Shown here: one piece after another, positions 33,974 through 45,030 of the stretch | How the letters are laid out: each line of letters begins with the position of its first letter | How positions within the stretch are numbered: position 1 is the stretch's first letter | Origin: Candidatus Rifleibacteriota bacterium | Lineage (GTDB): Bacteria > Muiribacteriota > Ozemobacteria > Ozemobacterales > Ozemobacteraceae | Assembly (NCBI GenBank): GCA_012517355.1 | Contig: JAAYVD010000117.1 | Coordinates: 1 to 64,000, forward strand | Reading direction: 5' to 3' | DNA length: 64,000 nt | Made by a program: the position numbers and the translations under genes | The notes under the pieces: generated by a model | The model's database searches: none | Told to the model about the DNA's origin: nothing | Seen by the model: the letters and a program-made list of their open reading frames with translations, nothing else

Positions 33974-34048
33974 AGGCTTGTAGCTCAGTTTGGTTAGAGC
34001 ACCACGTTGACATCGTGGGGGTCAGCGGTTCAAGTCCGCTCAAGCCTA
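33974..34048 (+). tRNA. tRNA-Val (anticodon GAC)
   Basis: A full cloverleaf: acceptor AGGCTTG/CAAGCCT, D stem GCTC/GAGC, anticodon stem CCACG/CGTGG around the loop TTGACAT (anticodon GAC), T stem AGCGG/CCGCT around TTCAAGT, and discriminator A. CCA is not encoded. A run of ten T follows at once and may act as a terminator or processing end. Confidence 0.95.
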
Positions 34049-35210: not shown

Positions 35211-35726
35211 TTACGGCTGGGCGGGAGGCTGCCCGGGTTTCTCCTCGCGCCGCATCTTGAACATCTCCATCTTCTGGGCCATCGCTCTCTGGATCGCCGG
35301 CATCAGTTCCTTGACCACCTGTGCCAGCGCGCTTTCCTGCAGGCGATGGATCTGCACCCGGCCGTCCTTGTCGATGACCAGGATGGCGATCGGCCGCATG
35401 AACCCGCCGGCCCCGGCCCCGATGCCGTGCCGGTCCTTGGTGGTCTCGGCGTCGCCCTTGTCTGGCCGCTTGGCCGTCTCCTCCTGGCCGAGAAGGCCTT
35501 CTCCCATGCCGAACCCGAGGCCCTTGGCCAGCACCGGAATGATCGTGGTGTCGCCCACCTTCACCGGGGTGCCGAGGGTCTGCGACGAGTCGAGGGTACC
35601 GCCGATCATGCCGGCGAGCTTGTCCATGGCAGGAAAGATCGCCATGTCGTTGTTTGGGGATTCCTGGGCGAACGCCCCTCCCGCCAGGACCAGCACCACC
35701 AGAAAACCCAGAGCCAGTCGTTGCAT
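35211..35726 (-). CDS. Secreted GerW/YtfJ-like protein
   Basis: This protein has 171 aa. The ATG at 35726 lies 1 bp after the stop of the upstream gene, with GGAGGAAC as ribosome site. A signal peptide (1-21) is followed by a GerW-type domain: GTPVKVGDTTIIPVLAKGLG (about 53-72) and the glycine-rich GIGAGAGGFMRPIAILVIDKDG (about 110-131). In spore formers, GerW/YtfJ has a role in germination, but the family is also widespread in non-sporulating bacteria and its biochemical role is unknown. An exported member is unusual in my experience. It is coupled to the membrane protein upstream. Confidence 0.8.
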   Translation of the reverse strand: MQRLALGFLVVLVLAGGAFAQESPNNDMAIFPAMDKLAGMIGGTLDSSQTLGTPVKVGDTTIIPVLAKGLGFGMGEGLLGQEETAKRPDKGDAETTKDRHGIGAGAGGFMRPIAILVIDKDGRVQIHRLQESALAQVVKELMPAIQRAMAQKMEMFKMRREEKPGQPPAQP

Positions 35727-36837: not shown

Positions 36838-37369
36838 TCTACGACCAGCTTAGGACGCCGCTCCCCGATTGTCAATGCAGGCGGCTGGTCGGCAGTGATT
36901 CTCAACATGTGATCTGGAGGGGTTTTCCGGTCTCTATCGGTCTGCCTTTCTGATGGGGACAGAGTCTGTCGGAATCGCCATCCGTCAGGAAAGTCACGGA
37001 TCGCTGTGGGGGAATTGCTGGCTGGTCAGCCACCCGCCCCTGCCACGCCTGCCGCGGCGACCGGATCCAGCCGGCCGGTCTTCGCCCGGCTGGTGACGCA
37101 GCATCCACCTGCCTTCCGACGGGGTCCCGATTGCCCCTCCTCCGCAACTTCCCGCCTCATCGCAACCCGATGGGATCCGCCCCCAACAAACCATCATCGG
37201 AAGCGATCCCCCCCGTCCGGCACCGGGTGCGGCTCGCGATACCGGTTCGGCCCGGGGCGGGGGTCCCGCCCCGCCCGATCTGACCTGTCACCGGGGAAGG
37301 GGACCATGGTATGCTGGAAACCCCGCGGAATGGCGGGGAAAGTCATCCCAAGGCCATGGGAGGTTGGGT
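36838..37369. other. Divergent intergenic region, about 530 bp
   Basis: No gene is supported in it. It contains a REP-like palindrome (36955-36970). A possible promoter for the rightward gene lies at its end: CTGTCA at 37285-37290 and TGG-TATGCT at 37307-37315. The mixed sequence (36840-37000) is less GC-rich than the surroundings. Confidence 0.4.
36955..36970. repeat. REP-like palindrome GGGGACAGA/TCTGTC
   Basis: GACAGA-G-TCTGTC is an exact palindrome preceded by GGG. Its right outer arm (CCC) has decayed to GGA. The word GGGGACAGAGTCTGTC resembles REP-type elements known from other bacteria (recalled). Confidence 0.5.
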
Positions 37370-40258
37370 ATGCCGGCATCCCGGTTCCGGTTGGGTTCTT
37401 CGCAGGGCTTGTCCTGGATCCTGTTCCTGTTCCTCATGCTTCCCCTGGTGGGGCTGGCCGGAAACCTTCCCGCGGCCAAAACCCCGCCCGATTTTGCGTT
37501 CCGACGCCTGGCCGCCTCCATGCCCCAGTTGCTCGAGATGGCCGACCTGGCGAAGCGCCACCAGGTGACCTTCGGGCTCTATGGCGGCACCGTGCGCGAC
37601 CTGTTTTTGGGCCACCGGTTCACCGTCATCAGCGACCTCGACCTGATCTACGACAGCTCCCAGCCAGGGTTCCCCGCCTTCCGCGACGCCCTGTTCGAGA
37701 TCGGCCGCCGCGACAAGGGGAAGATCCCCTTCCCCGACTTCCACTTCGATCTGGCGGCCCTCGGGGATGAAAACGCCCGCCGGCACCTCTACCACACCGA
37801 AGGCATCACGGCCACCAAGGTGGGGATCACCAGCGACGACATCCTGTTCGACCCGACCGGCCTGGGCGTGCAGGATCTGCGCAACCGCGTGTTCCGCTAT
37901 TACCCGCCCGACCGGGAAAGCATCCGGCTCGAGAACCTCGGCCGGTTCATCCGCGACCTCGTCCGGCTGCACACCTTCACCCTGGATCCCGGCACGCTCG
38001 CCCTGCTTGGGTCGTCCCTGGCCCGCTATCGTGATCCGTCCACCCCCGAAGGGCGCCAGGTGCGGGAGAACGCCCGGCGCTGCCGCGAGGACCTGGCGGG
38101 CGGGGGCCTGCTGCGGTTCCCGAACCTGATCAACCCGATGCGCAACGACCTGCGCTTCCTGCACAACGACCTGCCGGACCGCCTGACCCCCTACTTCCCC
38201 CTCGACATGTTCGTGGGCGACCTGTTCCGCACGGTCACCCAGGCGGATGACATGGAATCGATGCGGCGCGGTTTCGACCTGGTCGGGGTGGGGGAGTTCC
38301 TGCGCGAGATCGGCCTCGGGCCGGAAGCCGACCTCCTGACCGACCCGCGGCTGACCCGGGAAGATCTCTTCGACCGGTTCCACTTCCCCGGCCACCTCCC
38401 CGTCGTCGACCCGGCCCGCCTGCCTCTCGTGCAGCGCTGGCACCAGACTCTGCGGCGCTACACCTACCGGGTGTTGTTCGACATGCTCGCCAGCGAGTTT
38501 CCCACCGACTCGCCGGAGGCCGTGCACCTGCGTCGCCGACGTGACGACCTGATGAAGGATTCGACCTGGAACCTCCTGCAGCCGGGTGACGACTGGCGCG
38601 ACATGATCGAGGGGTTCCTCGACGCCGACTGCAACATCGGACTCCTGCCGCGGGCGAAGCTGATGAAGAGTCTCGACTGGTTCCTCGCCACCTACCTGCC
38701 GTATGGCGAGACCACCCTCCGGCCACTGCCGGCGACCGCCGGCCGCCTGCCCGGCGAACGGCTGCCCTGGCTGCGGCACCTGGAAGCCGGCTACTCGCCC
38801 GAGATCCGCGACATCGACCGCGCGGCTCCCCACGCGTTCGGCGACCTCGACGGCTATCTTGCCATCCAGACCGGGGCCGAACTGAGGGACCTCTGGTGCC
38901 ATCCCCGCACCGCCGCGGGCTTCTTCGCCCTTGACGCCTCCGACACCGTGAGCCTCCTCGGCCGGCTCGGCTACGCCCAGGTCTTCCAGGTCAACGCCGC
39001 GGGATTCTCGCGGCGGGTCCGGACCATGCTGGGATACGATCCCCGCCTCGACCGGGTGCTGATCGCCCAGTACGGATTCCACACCGATGGCCAGCTGCTC
39101 AACCACCAGGCCCGCCTCTGGCTCCTGCGGCGTCACCTGCCCGCCGGCACCCCCGACCGGGTGCTGGTCCTGCGCCGCCCCGAGCGGGATTTCCCCGACC
39201 GGGCGGCTTTCCGGGAGTTCCTGCGGAACCTGCCCGAGCCGGTCGATGTCCTCTTCGCCGGGTTCACCAATCCCCTGAAGAAGCGTCTGACCGACCTCGC
39301 CTTCCACCAGGTGGGCGATCTGCACCTGATGACCGGCCACCTGCCCTGTCCCGCCGGGAAGACCCCGCGCCTCGCCCTGTGTTTGTCAGCCTTTGGGGCA
39401 AACTACGGCGCGCTGCCCGCCCTCGTGGCCGAGGAACTCGCCTGGCACGACCTGCAGGCCGTGGTCTACGTCGGCACCGGCGGCGGCTTGCAGCGCATCC
39501 CGGGTCGGTTCGCCTGGTCGCTGCCCGACCGCGTCTTCCTGGCCCACCCCGCCTGGGCGACGACAAGGCCCCCCGCCGGCACCGCCGCGCCCGCCACGCT
39601 CCCGGGTGAGGCCCCCGGCCGCCCGTCACCCGGTGCCGCCGCCTCTCTTGATCTCATCCCTGATGCCATTGCCACGCCTGATGCCATTGCCACGCCTGAT
39701 GCCATCCCTGACATCACGGCCGCTGCTGACGCGACCGCCGCCGCTGACGACGCCCCTGACGCCACCGCCGCGGTCTCCTCCTCCGGGGAACCGCTCGTCC
39801 TGCCCTTTGCCAACGCCGCCGCCCGACTGGCCCTTCCCCATGCCGTCACCGGAACCCTGCACGGCACGGTGTTGACCCCGCTCCAGGAGACCGTCCCCTG
39901 GGTCCGCCAGGCCCGTGCCGCCGGCACCGACTCGGTCGACTGCGAGGCCTGGCACCTGGTCCACCGTCTGGCCTTCCAACCCACCCCCCCCTGGCTGTAC
40001 CTGCTGGTCAACATCACCGACTTCCCCTCCGACCGGCCCGCCCCCGATCAGGGCGGCATCACCACCGAAAACTCCGCCCTTCAGTACCAACGCGTGGCCC
40101 AAGCCCTCGACCTCGTCGTCGATGACCTCGCCCGCACCGACCTCCTGCCGGTGCCGGCCCCGCCCCCCACCCCGGGCCTGCGGCGCCCCGCGGCGGAGCC
40201 GGCGGGAAGGGCCCACCCCGCGCCGGTCCCGGTGCCGGAGGCCCGGCGCGACCCCTGA
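37370..40258 (+). CDS. Exported fusion: nucleotidyltransferase head domain plus nucleoside-phosphorylase-like domain
   Basis: This protein has 962 aa. The ATG at 37370 follows GGGAGG at 37358. A signal-like helix at about 14-31 is followed by a class II nucleotidyltransferase head domain of the CCA-adding/poly(A) polymerase kind: YGGTVRDLFLG at 71-81 and the DLD metal pair in SDLDLIYD (88-95). A helical section (GRFIRDLVRLHTF, about 195) is like the region after the head in those enzymes. The large middle (about 250-660) is unassigned. From about 665 a nucleoside-phosphorylase-like domain appears: LSAFGANYGALPALVAEELA, VVYVGTGGGLQ, VDCEAWHLVHRLA (about 853; compare VEMEA...) and LVNITDFPSD. 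A low-complexity linker with an 18-bp repeat interrupts it (about 755-805). An exported protein with a CCA-enzyme-like head is unexpected. The function is unknown; the domain calls are by motif only. Confidence 0.7.
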   Translation: MPASRFRLGSSQGLSWILFLFLMLPLVGLAGNLPAAKTPPDFAFRRLAASMPQLLEMADLAKRHQVTFGLYGGTVRDLFLGHRFTVISDLDLIYDSSQPGFPAFRDALFEIGRRDKGKIPFPDFHFDLAALGDENARRHLYHTEGITATKVGITSDDILFDPTGLGVQDLRNRVFRYYPPDRESIRLENLGRFIRDLVRLHTFTLDPGTLALLGSSLARYRDPSTPEGRQVRENARRCREDLAGGGLLRFPNLINPMRNDLRFLHNDLPDRLTPYFPLDMFVGDLFRTVTQADDMESMRRGFDLVGVGEFLREIGLGPEADLLTDPRLTREDLFDRFHFPGHLPVVDPARLPLVQRWHQTLRRYTYRVLFDMLASEFPTDSPEAVHLRRRRDDLMKDSTWNLLQPGDDWRDMIEGFLDADCNIGLLPRAKLMKSLDWFLATYLPYGETTLRPLPATAGRLPGERLPWLRHLEAGYSPEIRDIDRAAPHAFGDLDGYLAIQTGAELRDLWCHPRTAAGFFALDASDTVSLLGRLGYAQVFQVNAAGFSRRVRTMLGYDPRLDRVLIAQYGFHTDGQLLNHQARLWLLRRHLPAGTPDRVLVLRRPERDFPDRAAFREFLRNLPEPVDVLFAGFTNPLKKRLTDLAFHQVGDLHLMTGHLPCPAGKTPRLALCLSAFGANYGALPALVAEELAWHDLQAVVYVGTGGGLQRIPGRFAWSLPDRVFLAHPAWATTRPPAGTAAPATLPGEAPGRPSPGAAASLDLIPDAIATPDAIATPDAIPDITAAADATAAADDAPDATAAVSSSGEPLVLPFANAAARLALPHAVTGTLHGTVLTPLQETVPWVRQARAAGTDSVDCEAWHLVHRLAFQPTPPWLYLLVNITDFPSDRPAPDQGGITTENSALQYQRVAQALDLVVDDLARTDLLPVPAPPPTPGLRRPAAEPAGRAHPAPVPVPEARRDP
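39659..39712 (+). repeat. 18-bp tandem repeat (3 units)
   Basis: Two exact units of CCTGATGCCATTGCCACG and a third, diverged one, in frame, encode a PDAIAT repeat in the linker of the fusion protein. Confidence 0.9.
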
Positions 40259-42669: not shown

Positions 42670-45030
42670 TCAGGGGGCGAACTCCGCGGCCTCCAGGGCC
42701 CGGGCCACCCCGAGATGGACGGTGCTCCACAACTGGACCGGGTTGGCCTGCGTCTCGGTGCCGCTCTCCGAACCGTAGGCCACGGCTTCCATCCTGCCCC
42801 CGGCGATCCGCCACGACCACAGCTCGGAATTGGCCAGCCGCCCGATGGCCGCCTCGCCCGCGGCGATGTCGGCCACCACGCCCCGCATGGCCGCCACCAG
42901 ATCTTCGCCCCCCGCCCGCCCGTTCCACCGCGCGATCTGCCTGAGAAGACCACGGGTGATCATCGCCTGCTGCCACCCCCAGACCACCAGGCCGTGGTAG
43001 GAACCCCGACCCAGGTCCCGCCACAGCCGTGGTTCAGCCAGAAAGGGATTGGCGGCGAGGATGCCCACCGGGGTCCTGACCCCCAGCGGAAAGGGGAGCC
43101 GCAGCAGCCGCACGATCTCCCAAAGGTCGCCCTCGTCAGGTTCCCCGAGGAAGAGGATGAACCCGACGTCGCTGTTGACCACCCGCACGGGGCTGCCGTC
43201 TCCCCGCAACGACAGGGCAGGGAAGGCCAGCCCGTCACGCAGGTCCCCCGAAACCGCCCGCCCGTCCAGGAACTCCCCGACCGACCCCGCCTCCAACGGT
43301 TGCGCCCGGAACCAGGCGCGCTCCGCGGCGCTCCAGGGCCCCTGCGCGAGGTAGGCCGTGGCGGCCCGCCGTACCTCGTCGGCGTCGGCGGTCACCTGGA
43401 ACAGGCCCGCCGCTTCCCGCCACCGCCCATCCAGGCCGGCCAACCAGCCCGGATGGCTCAGCAGCCGATGCAGGCAGGGCGTCCCCGTTCTCGACACCAG
43501 CCGCTCCCGCACCTTCGGCGGCACCGGCAGGTCGGCCAGCAGCCGCCCGATGCTCCGCAGCGCGGCGGGGACCAGCACCAGGTTGACGTTCCCGGAATAC
43601 CTCCCCCAGCCCAGACCCGCATCCGAATCCCGCCAGTCGCCGACCGTGGGGTGCGTGATCCCCACCAGCCGCCCGGCTCCCGCCCCCTCCCGGAAGCGGA
43701 TGGCCCGCCGCAGGCACCATTCCATGTTCCGCAAGGCCGCCTCCAGGTTGGAGGTGCCGTCCGGCCCCGGCGTCTCCAAAAACTCCGCGCGCGCCGCGGC
43801 CGGCACCGCCGGGTCGGCGAGGAACCGCTCCAGGGCGATGGGCAACAGGAAATCGTCGTCGATCATCTTGTAGTCGTTGACCGGTGCCGCCTCCCGCCCG
43901 AAGGTCGCCCTGGCCTCTCCGCCTTCTCCACCCGCCCCGAATTCCCCGCCCGCCCCGAGTCCCCCGGTTCCCCCGGCTCCCTCGCCGGGCCCGGCGCCGG
44001 TGCCGCCAAGATGCCGGTGGATGGCCTGGCCCCCGATGTCCTCCTCGTGCGCCACCTGGCCGTCGGCCGACAGCCGGTCGAGGACCGACTGCAGCCCCGC
44101 CGCCGCCACCGCGGGCGACAGGCAGTCCTGCAGCAGCAACAGGGTGAGCAGGGTGTCGCGGCCGAAGTAGGTCAGATACCGCCACGATCCCGCCAGGAAT
44201 TTTTCGCGGTAACACAGGAAGCGCAGGCCCCGGAACGCCTCCCGCAACCGCTCGGCCGCCGGTGAGGATTCGCTCGTCCGCTGCCGAAGCCAGTCCATGA
44301 CCTCGGGCCGGAGGATCTCCCCGGCCTGGAACGGTCGCAGGGGCGGAAACTCCACCCGGGCGGTGCAGGTCAGATCCAGGTCCGGACCCGGCCCCGTGAC
44401 CACCCAGCCCCCGGCGGCCTGCCGGGCGGTGGCCCCCGCGGGCAGGGCGATGGACAGTTCATACCGATGGCGGCCGGCGGGCTCGATTCGCTGGAACCGC
44501 ACCAACCGACCGTCCGGCCCTTCCTCCACTTCGCCGACCGGTTCCATGATCCCCATCGGCGGCAGCCCGACCCGGGCCAGGTATGCGATCCTGGCCTGGA
44601 GCCGGTCGGCCACCGCGGCCGGATTCGGGAGGTCGCGCAGGAACCGGACGCTCTCCAGCAGCACCTGCGTCAGACGCACCTCCCGGCCCCCCACCCGCAC
44701 CCCGAACCGGAGGCCACGCCCCCCGTCGGGGGTCTCCACGGCGCGGGGCGGGGTGCTCCAGGTCAGCCCGGGACCGGCCTCGCCGGGCCGCGTCCCCATG
44801 CCGGCAAAGGTCACCGCCATCCCTGAGTTCCCCGCCGGAAAGGCCATCACCAGGCGGGCCGGCGACCCCCCTTCCAGGACCAGGTGCGCCTGCACCTCCC
44901 CGTCCTGGAAGAACCGGTGGCGGTCCCGCCCCTCCGCGAGATCGAAGGCCAGAGGCTCGGCTCCCAGCCGCATGGCGGCCGGAGGCAGGGCAGACAACAC
45001 CAGGAACAGGCACAACCACAGGTGGCGCAT
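42670..45030 (-). CDS. Secreted (alpha/alpha)6 glycosidase-like protein, debranching-enzyme type
   Basis: This protein has 786 aa with a signal peptide of about 24 residues. An N-terminal beta domain (to about 255) is followed by a helical toroid: WRYLTYFGRDTLLTLLLL (about 285), like the F-GRD-S-L motif of amylo-alpha-1,6-glucosidase-type enzymes, then GQVAHEEDIG, and SYHGLVVWGWQQAMITRGLL and NPVQLWSTVHLGVARAL near the end. These fit a six-hairpin glycosidase. A Gly/Ala/Glu-rich insert (about residues 345-375) breaks the toroid and looks like slippage. The substrate is unknown; an extracytoplasmic alpha-glucan is a reasonable guess. The acid/base pair is not certain from sequence alone. Confidence 0.72.
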   Translation of the reverse strand: MRHLWLCLFLVLSALPPAAMRLGAEPLAFDLAEGRDRHRFFQDGEVQAHLVLEGGSPARLVMAFPAGNSGMAVTFAGMGTRPGEAGPGLTWSTPPRAVETPDGGRGLRFGVRVGGREVRLTQVLLESVRFLRDLPNPAAVADRLQARIAYLARVGLPPMGIMEPVGEVEEGPDGRLVRFQRIEPAGRHRYELSIALPAGATARQAAGGWVVTGPGPDLDLTCTARVEFPPLRPFQAGEILRPEVMDWLRQRTSESSPAAERLREAFRGLRFLCYREKFLAGSWRYLTYFGRDTLLTLLLLQDCLSPAVAAAGLQSVLDRLSADGQVAHEEDIGGQAIHRHLGGTGAGPGEGAGGTGGLGAGGEFGAGGEGGEARATFGREAAPVNDYKMIDDDFLLPIALERFLADPAVPAAARAEFLETPGPDGTSNLEAALRNMEWCLRRAIRFREGAGAGRLVGITHPTVGDWRDSDAGLGWGRYSGNVNLVLVPAALRSIGRLLADLPVPPKVRERLVSRTGTPCLHRLLSHPGWLAGLDGRWREAAGLFQVTADADEVRRAATAYLAQGPWSAAERAWFRAQPLEAGSVGEFLDGRAVSGDLRDGLAFPALSLRGDGSPVRVVNSDVGFILFLGEPDEGDLWEIVRLLRLPFPLGVRTPVGILAANPFLAEPRLWRDLGRGSYHGLVVWGWQQAMITRGLLRQIARWNGRAGGEDLVAAMRGVVADIAAGEAAIGRLANSELWSWRIAGGRMEAVAYGSESGTETQANPVQLWSTVHLGVARALEAAEFAP

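Follow-up and report, generated by a model that had tools for sequence, protein, structure and literature searches.

Gene organization of the F0 locus

The window, i.e., the whole stretch of 64,000 nucleotides analyzed here, corresponds to contig C13 of a 7.1-Mb Candidatus Rifleibacteriota assembly and carries a gene, designated F0, whose reading frame is open from TTG 37364 or ATG 37370 and ends with the stop codon at 40256–40258. The features of F0 are as follows.

37358–37363, + strand: Shine-Dalgarno-like GGGAGG, read from the sequence ahead of ATG 37370
37370–40258, + strand: whole gene F0, 962 aa plus stop, from the reading frame and homologues
37370–37477, + strand: signal-peptide-like N-terminus, net charge +2, hydrophobic core at residues 16–31
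37490–38035, + strand: class II (CCA/poly(A) polymerase type) nucleotidyltransferase (NTase)-like head and neck, from PolyA_pol matches and hhalign
37583–37600, + strand: GGTVRD of the NTase head, residues 72–77
37631–37642, + strand: SDLD of the NTase head, with D-x-D at residues 89/91
38036–38779, + strand: mostly helical region, possibly NTase body/tail, from weak model helices; conserved in alignment A1
38789–39298, + strand: conserved middle domain, residues 474–643, common to paralogues carrying other NTases
39314–40135, + strand: PNP/MTAN-superfamily domain, from profile matches and catalytic acids
39473–39490, + strand: GTGGGL of the PNP domain, residues 702–707
39569–39793, + strand: low-complexity Ala/Pro/Asp-rich insert in the PNP domain (residues ~734–808), missing from the homologues in A1
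39929–39952, + strand: DSVDCEAW of the PNP domain
40010–40033, + strand: NITDFPSD of the PNP domain

F0 is a real gene, because homologues sharing 44–66% identity run almost end to end and are found beyond its own genus and also in a second family of the phylum. It was found in nine of 40 genomes of the phylum, with an additional fragment in G008; the G003 copy is interrupted. The relatives searched were a sample of 382 genomes, and this taxonomic range is a lower bound. No F0 relatives were detected on the viral contigs searched. The nine members were aligned (A1). A first-pass annotation had described F0 as an exported protein joining a CCA/poly(A)-polymerase-like head to a phosphorylase-like domain, and its observations were confirmed: the frame is open, the motifs lie where they had been placed (GGTVRD and D-x-D being invariant in A1, and GTGGGL, VDCEAW, and ITDFP all present in F0), and the homologues are conserved. 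Single-sequence searches of Pfam, NCBIfam, and PDB with F0 were nearly blank.

Other genes in the window include one for a 786-aa protein whose start resembles a signal peptide and for which Pfam gave no match (42673–45030, − strand), one for a Spore_YtfJ-domain protein with a signal-peptide-like N-terminus (35214–35726, − strand), and a tRNA-Val (GAC) gene, the only tRNA found within the window (33974–34048, + strand).

N-terminal segment and predicted export

The N-terminal segment of F0 reaches a mean hydropathy of 2.56 over 15 residues. According to a hydropathy rule of thumb, used in place of a trained predictor and with start codons picked by eye, a net positive n-region followed by a hydrophobic core (hydropathy ≥1.85) is present in 22/22 family members, while seven controls, three of which are copies of the partner protein F1, stay at ≤1.35. 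The signal-like helix noticed in the first-pass annotation is thus a family-wide pattern seen in every homologue. The window F0 has no textbook AxA site straight after the hydrophobic core, and AxA-like or lipobox-like sites end the N-terminal segment in several other members. F0 is probably exported, with a predicted location in the periplasm or at the surface.

Class II NTase-like head

The window protein alone matched PolyA_pol below the Pfam cut-off (E 0.08, 13.7 bits against a cut-off of 23), and all nine A1 members matched this model. In a single-pair comparison, the F0 profile gave a moderate match to CCA/PAP proteins from this phylum across head and neck (hhalign 79.7%, E 1.5e-5), while the NadD control gave 0.6%, so that profile methods support the class II assignment proposed earlier. 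Motif A is present in F0, with GGxVRD and DxD invariant in A1. Motif B (RRDxT-N) is missing from the alignment of A1 with CCA/PAP proteins, its place being taken by EGITATKVG; motif D (EDxxR) is replaced in A1 by E/H-N-x-G-R, in which the Arg is kept and the Asp lost; and in two genomes Asn replaces the third acidic residue. For these reasons, the head is by its motifs NTase-like and not a CCA enzyme, and its activity could have been lost or changed.

Two-sequence AF2 models (window protein plus L020) were too weak to fix the folds, with a pLDDT of 37.7 for full-length F0, with helices in the middle, and 55.5 for a crop of residues 41–222, in which the secondary-structure order of an NTase appeared at low confidence. 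Foldseek matches of this crop all had E above 1; ANT(2'')-Ia, LnuA, and FKRP were among the matches listed.

PNP/MTAN domain

The window protein alone had no PNP match in Pfam, and PNP_UDP_1 matched five of the nine A1 members (best 7.9e-7), the PF01048 cut-off being exceeded in L026 and L027. Because PolyA_pol matches 9/9 members and PNP_UDP_1 5/9, these profile matches are not attributed to chance. Searched against PDB, the family profile retrieved a solved AMP nucleosidase (3.7e-9), PNPs (~1e-8), and also MTANs. It aligned with PNP/MTAN proteins at 97.5% (hhalign, 8e-12) against a reference alignment that also contained this domain from three F1 proteins, and the F0-only profile reached 67.5% (5e-5). 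The PNP fold suggested in the first-pass annotation is therefore backed by each of these profile methods. The ribose-binding catalytic Glu is kept in 18/18 family members and the base-contacting Asp in 17/18. Since an Arg at the phosphate-site position of DeoD Arg87 was found in none of the 18, the domain is probably a hydrolase rather than a phosphorylase.

Middle domain and paralogues with other NTases

Of the ~400 residues that had been left unassigned between the two ends, a part can now be divided off: they separate into an NTase neck/helical part (to ~470), whose helical portion stays without assignment, and an extra domain at residues 474–643. The profile of this middle domain had no convincing match in PDB. 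Two candidates were discarded: a duplicated PNP domain gave only 0.7–1.9% in hhalign, and a match to 6-phosphogluconolactonase (E 0.009 over part of the chain) was judged to be chance.

Within the phylum, 17 genomes encode the middle domain, and it also occurs in G227, which belongs to a different phylum. The middle and PNP domains are joined to an N-terminal NadD-like domain in L133, L134, L137–L140, L203 (from another phylum), and L205, and to a C-terminal one in L144–L146; in L135 and L136 they are followed by a conserved C-terminal domain of ~250 aa without Pfam match; and in L147–L149 and L152 they occur without an NTase. The NadD-like domain matches CTP_transf_like (6e-16) and solved NadD (1.6e-26), and its HxxH and SSTxxR motifs are intact in all eight aligned copies. 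The genome of the window holds two NadD-type members (L133 and L134) besides F0. On the family tree, clades track architecture near the tips; deep forks are weak, and exchanges of the NTase module therefore could not be counted. Directly 5' of NTase-less members lies a HEAT plus WG-repeat protein (L147:285-2768, on which Pfam was run, and L149:5186-7666).

The pairing itself is argued to be functional, because two unrelated NTase folds join the same exported core.

Conserved gene neighborhood

A neighbor survey in the homologues, as proposed in the first-pass annotation, revealed a conserved gene set. The usual order in most of them is F3 (NTT-HEAT), F2 (PhnD-like lipoprotein), F1 (PNP-radical SAM), and F0 last. 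F1 is upstream of F0 in six genomes, with an ATGA overlap in several; it combines a PNP domain with a radical SAM domain, the latter bearing a conserved C-x3-C-x2-C motif, and has no signal peptide. The F1 fusions at L026:10860-13739 and L102:8284-11409 and their relatives share the conserved stretches HIQGLNSISAEPEEGL and SRGCGxxCSxCCSGG. No named family matched the radical SAM part above cut-off, and the PNP domain of F1 matched NCBIfam HpnG at 1e-12, far below cut-off. Upstream of F1, F2 is a PhnD-like substrate-binding lipoprotein (~1e-49). F3, which lies upstream of F2 at four of the loci inspected, has an NTT domain followed by HEAT repeats and aligned with NTT-HEAT proteins at 99.8% (E 5.6e-30); these reference proteins were found with the TLC model and align to stand-alone NTTs at 99.9%. 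In two loci, dCache-HAMP or HAMP proteins lie near the NTT-HEAT gene.

F1 is present in eight of the nine F0 genomes and in no genome lacking F0 (p 1.2e-7, in a test that takes no account of shared ancestry); the only F0 genome without F1 is G010, which is 67% complete. In the genome of the window, F4-F1 are on contig C41 (L102), apart from F0 on C13, and the two are likewise separate in G007. The NadD-type paralogues had no F1-F4 neighbors within the stretches examined. NTT-type genes are widespread in this large-genome phylum (22/37 genomes above the Pfam cut-off), with examples at G000:C127, G037:C332, G034:C207, and G038:C281, among others.

Proposed function of F0

Our favored explanation, to which we give about an even chance, is that F0 would be a nucleotide enzyme with two activities that works outside the cytoplasm, with an NTT-like transporter either feeding or emptying it. 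Nucleotide chemistry outside the cytoplasm is suggested because F0 relatives share their operon with a nucleotide transporter. The first-pass annotation had objected that no NTP is expected there; this objection loses force given the NTT-HEAT transporter-like protein encoded in the same operon. Support at the sequence level covers the architecture, the signal-peptide-like N-termini, the operon, the co-occurrence, and the reuse of the middle and PNP domains with a second NTase type; we infer the catalysis, the location after export, the direction of transport, and the order of attaching and stripping.

In the proposed mechanism, the N-terminal class II NTase-like domain of F0 would take a nucleotide from an NTP and attach it to an acceptor, and the PNP domain of F0 would remove the base, both outside the cytoplasm. 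The NTT-HEAT protein F3 would carry nucleotides across the inner membrane; the lipoprotein F2 would bind a ligand; and cytoplasmic F1 would make or modify a related, adenosyl-type compound. Following the logic of HpnG and the radical SAM enzyme HpnH, the PNP domain of F1 may remove the base or clear SAM by-products. By the same analogy, attaching a nucleotide and then stripping the base would amount to net transfer of a phosphoribosyl-type group, a specific version of the mechanism that we consider doubtful. In an equally tentative form, NTT-HEAT would export NTPs, and the exported enzymes would load a nucleotide onto an acceptor, either in the envelope or extracellular, before stripping off the base; their NTases (class II or NadD) would be interchangeable on a constant middle-plus-nucleosidase core.

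Other explanations have to be weighed against this enzyme reading. The exported PNP domain might serve nutrient scavenging, hydrolyzing external nucleosides or nucleotides whose products are then imported, with the NTase-like domains as remnants or binding modules. Exported salvage nucleosidases are known in Borrelia (PMC7557402), a PhnD-like binding lipoprotein and an NTT-like transporter are in the operon, and the class II NTase has eroded motifs B and D. However, the invariant GGxVRD and DxD of F0 and the intact NadD motifs in eight paralogue domains are unexpected for remnants, and salvage does not explain the cytoplasmic PNP-radical SAM partner; we regard scavenging as rather unlikely. 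Quite improbable, in our judgment, is a membrane-anchored cytoplasmic enzyme, in which the N-terminal helix would stay uncleaved and anchor domains that face the cell interior. Both NTPs and the radical SAM partner reside in the cytoplasm, and with no textbook AxA site in the window F0 its cleavage is only putative, yet the n-region ahead of the helix carries a net positive charge in every one of the 22 members, which predicts that the remainder lies outside, and several members do have AxA-like or lipobox-like sites.

Non-catalytic sensing of extracytoplasmic nucleotides by both domains, tied to the dCache-HAMP gene of two loci, would accord with the position of these dCache-HAMP or HAMP proteins adjoining the NTT-HEAT gene and with the altered NTase motifs. 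It is very unlikely: the ribose Glu and base Asp are kept in nearly all members, and HxxH and SSTxxR are kept in the NadD-type ones. The first-pass annotation had also raised an effector of a conflict system. PNP domains of some cytoplasmic systems are predicted to be effectors or signal generators (PMC7159879), and in the present family domains are swapped around a constant core. However, the described systems are NTPase-coupled multi-gene systems with PNP domains, none of which was seen here; F0 had no PADLOC match, and its conserved neighbors, which form a stable operon with it, comprise one transporter-like protein, one binding lipoprotein, and one radical SAM enzyme but no immunity-like partner. 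Together with the signal-peptide-like N-termini, these findings speak against a role in conflict, whether as effector or signal generator, and leave it only a very slim chance.

Comparison with known systems

F0 represents a previously undescribed family of NTase-nucleosidase fusions in a little-studied bacterial group. Its parts belong to known superfamilies; new are their combination, location, and extra domain. The layout, for which the first-pass annotation had known no precedent, is indeed absent from Pfam, NCBIfam, and PADLOC, and a non-exhaustive search of these together with PDB and open-access PMC papers found no described system coupling an NTase and a nucleosidase outside the cytoplasm.

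The NTase end resembles the CCA-adding enzyme/poly(A) polymerase head (PF01743), with GGxVRD, DxD, DPxG..DL, and the neck pattern aligning over 137 columns; however, F0 lacks motif B, has a changed motif D and a signal-peptide-like start, and is fused to two further domains. The paralogues carry the same domain type as the nicotinate-nucleotide adenylyltransferase NadD, in a version that appears to be exported and is fused to the middle and PNP module. With MTA/SAH nucleosidase, AMP nucleosidase, and DeoD PNP (PF01048), F0 shares both catalytic acids and profile similarity at the level of the fold; it differs from them in lacking the phosphate-site Arg and in being fused and probably exported, and most family members fall below the Pfam cut-off. 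The Borrelia MTANs Bgp and MtnN presumably lack an F0-type NTase part. Like F0, these exported nucleosidases, used for salvage, are MTAN-superfamily proteins with signal peptides (PMC7557402), but they are not known to come with an NTT operon.

HpnH and HpnG, in which formation of adenosylhopane is followed by removal of adenine (PMC4337730), likewise place an adenosyl-adding and a PNP-type enzyme in one pathway, and the PNP domain of F1 matches HpnG; however, F1 unites both kinds of domain, scores far under the HpnG cut-off, and accompanies an apparently exported NTase-PNP protein. Finally, F3 is by profile a member of the NTT-HEAT proteins, to which a 2017 study of nucleotide-transporter fusions assigned no function (PMC5381601). 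The F0 operon gives these proteins a concrete context and turns the export of nucleotides to an enzyme outside the cytoplasm into a hypothesis that can be tested. The neighbors of F3, unlike those of the fusions in that study, are predicted exported nucleotide enzymes and not cNBD proteins.
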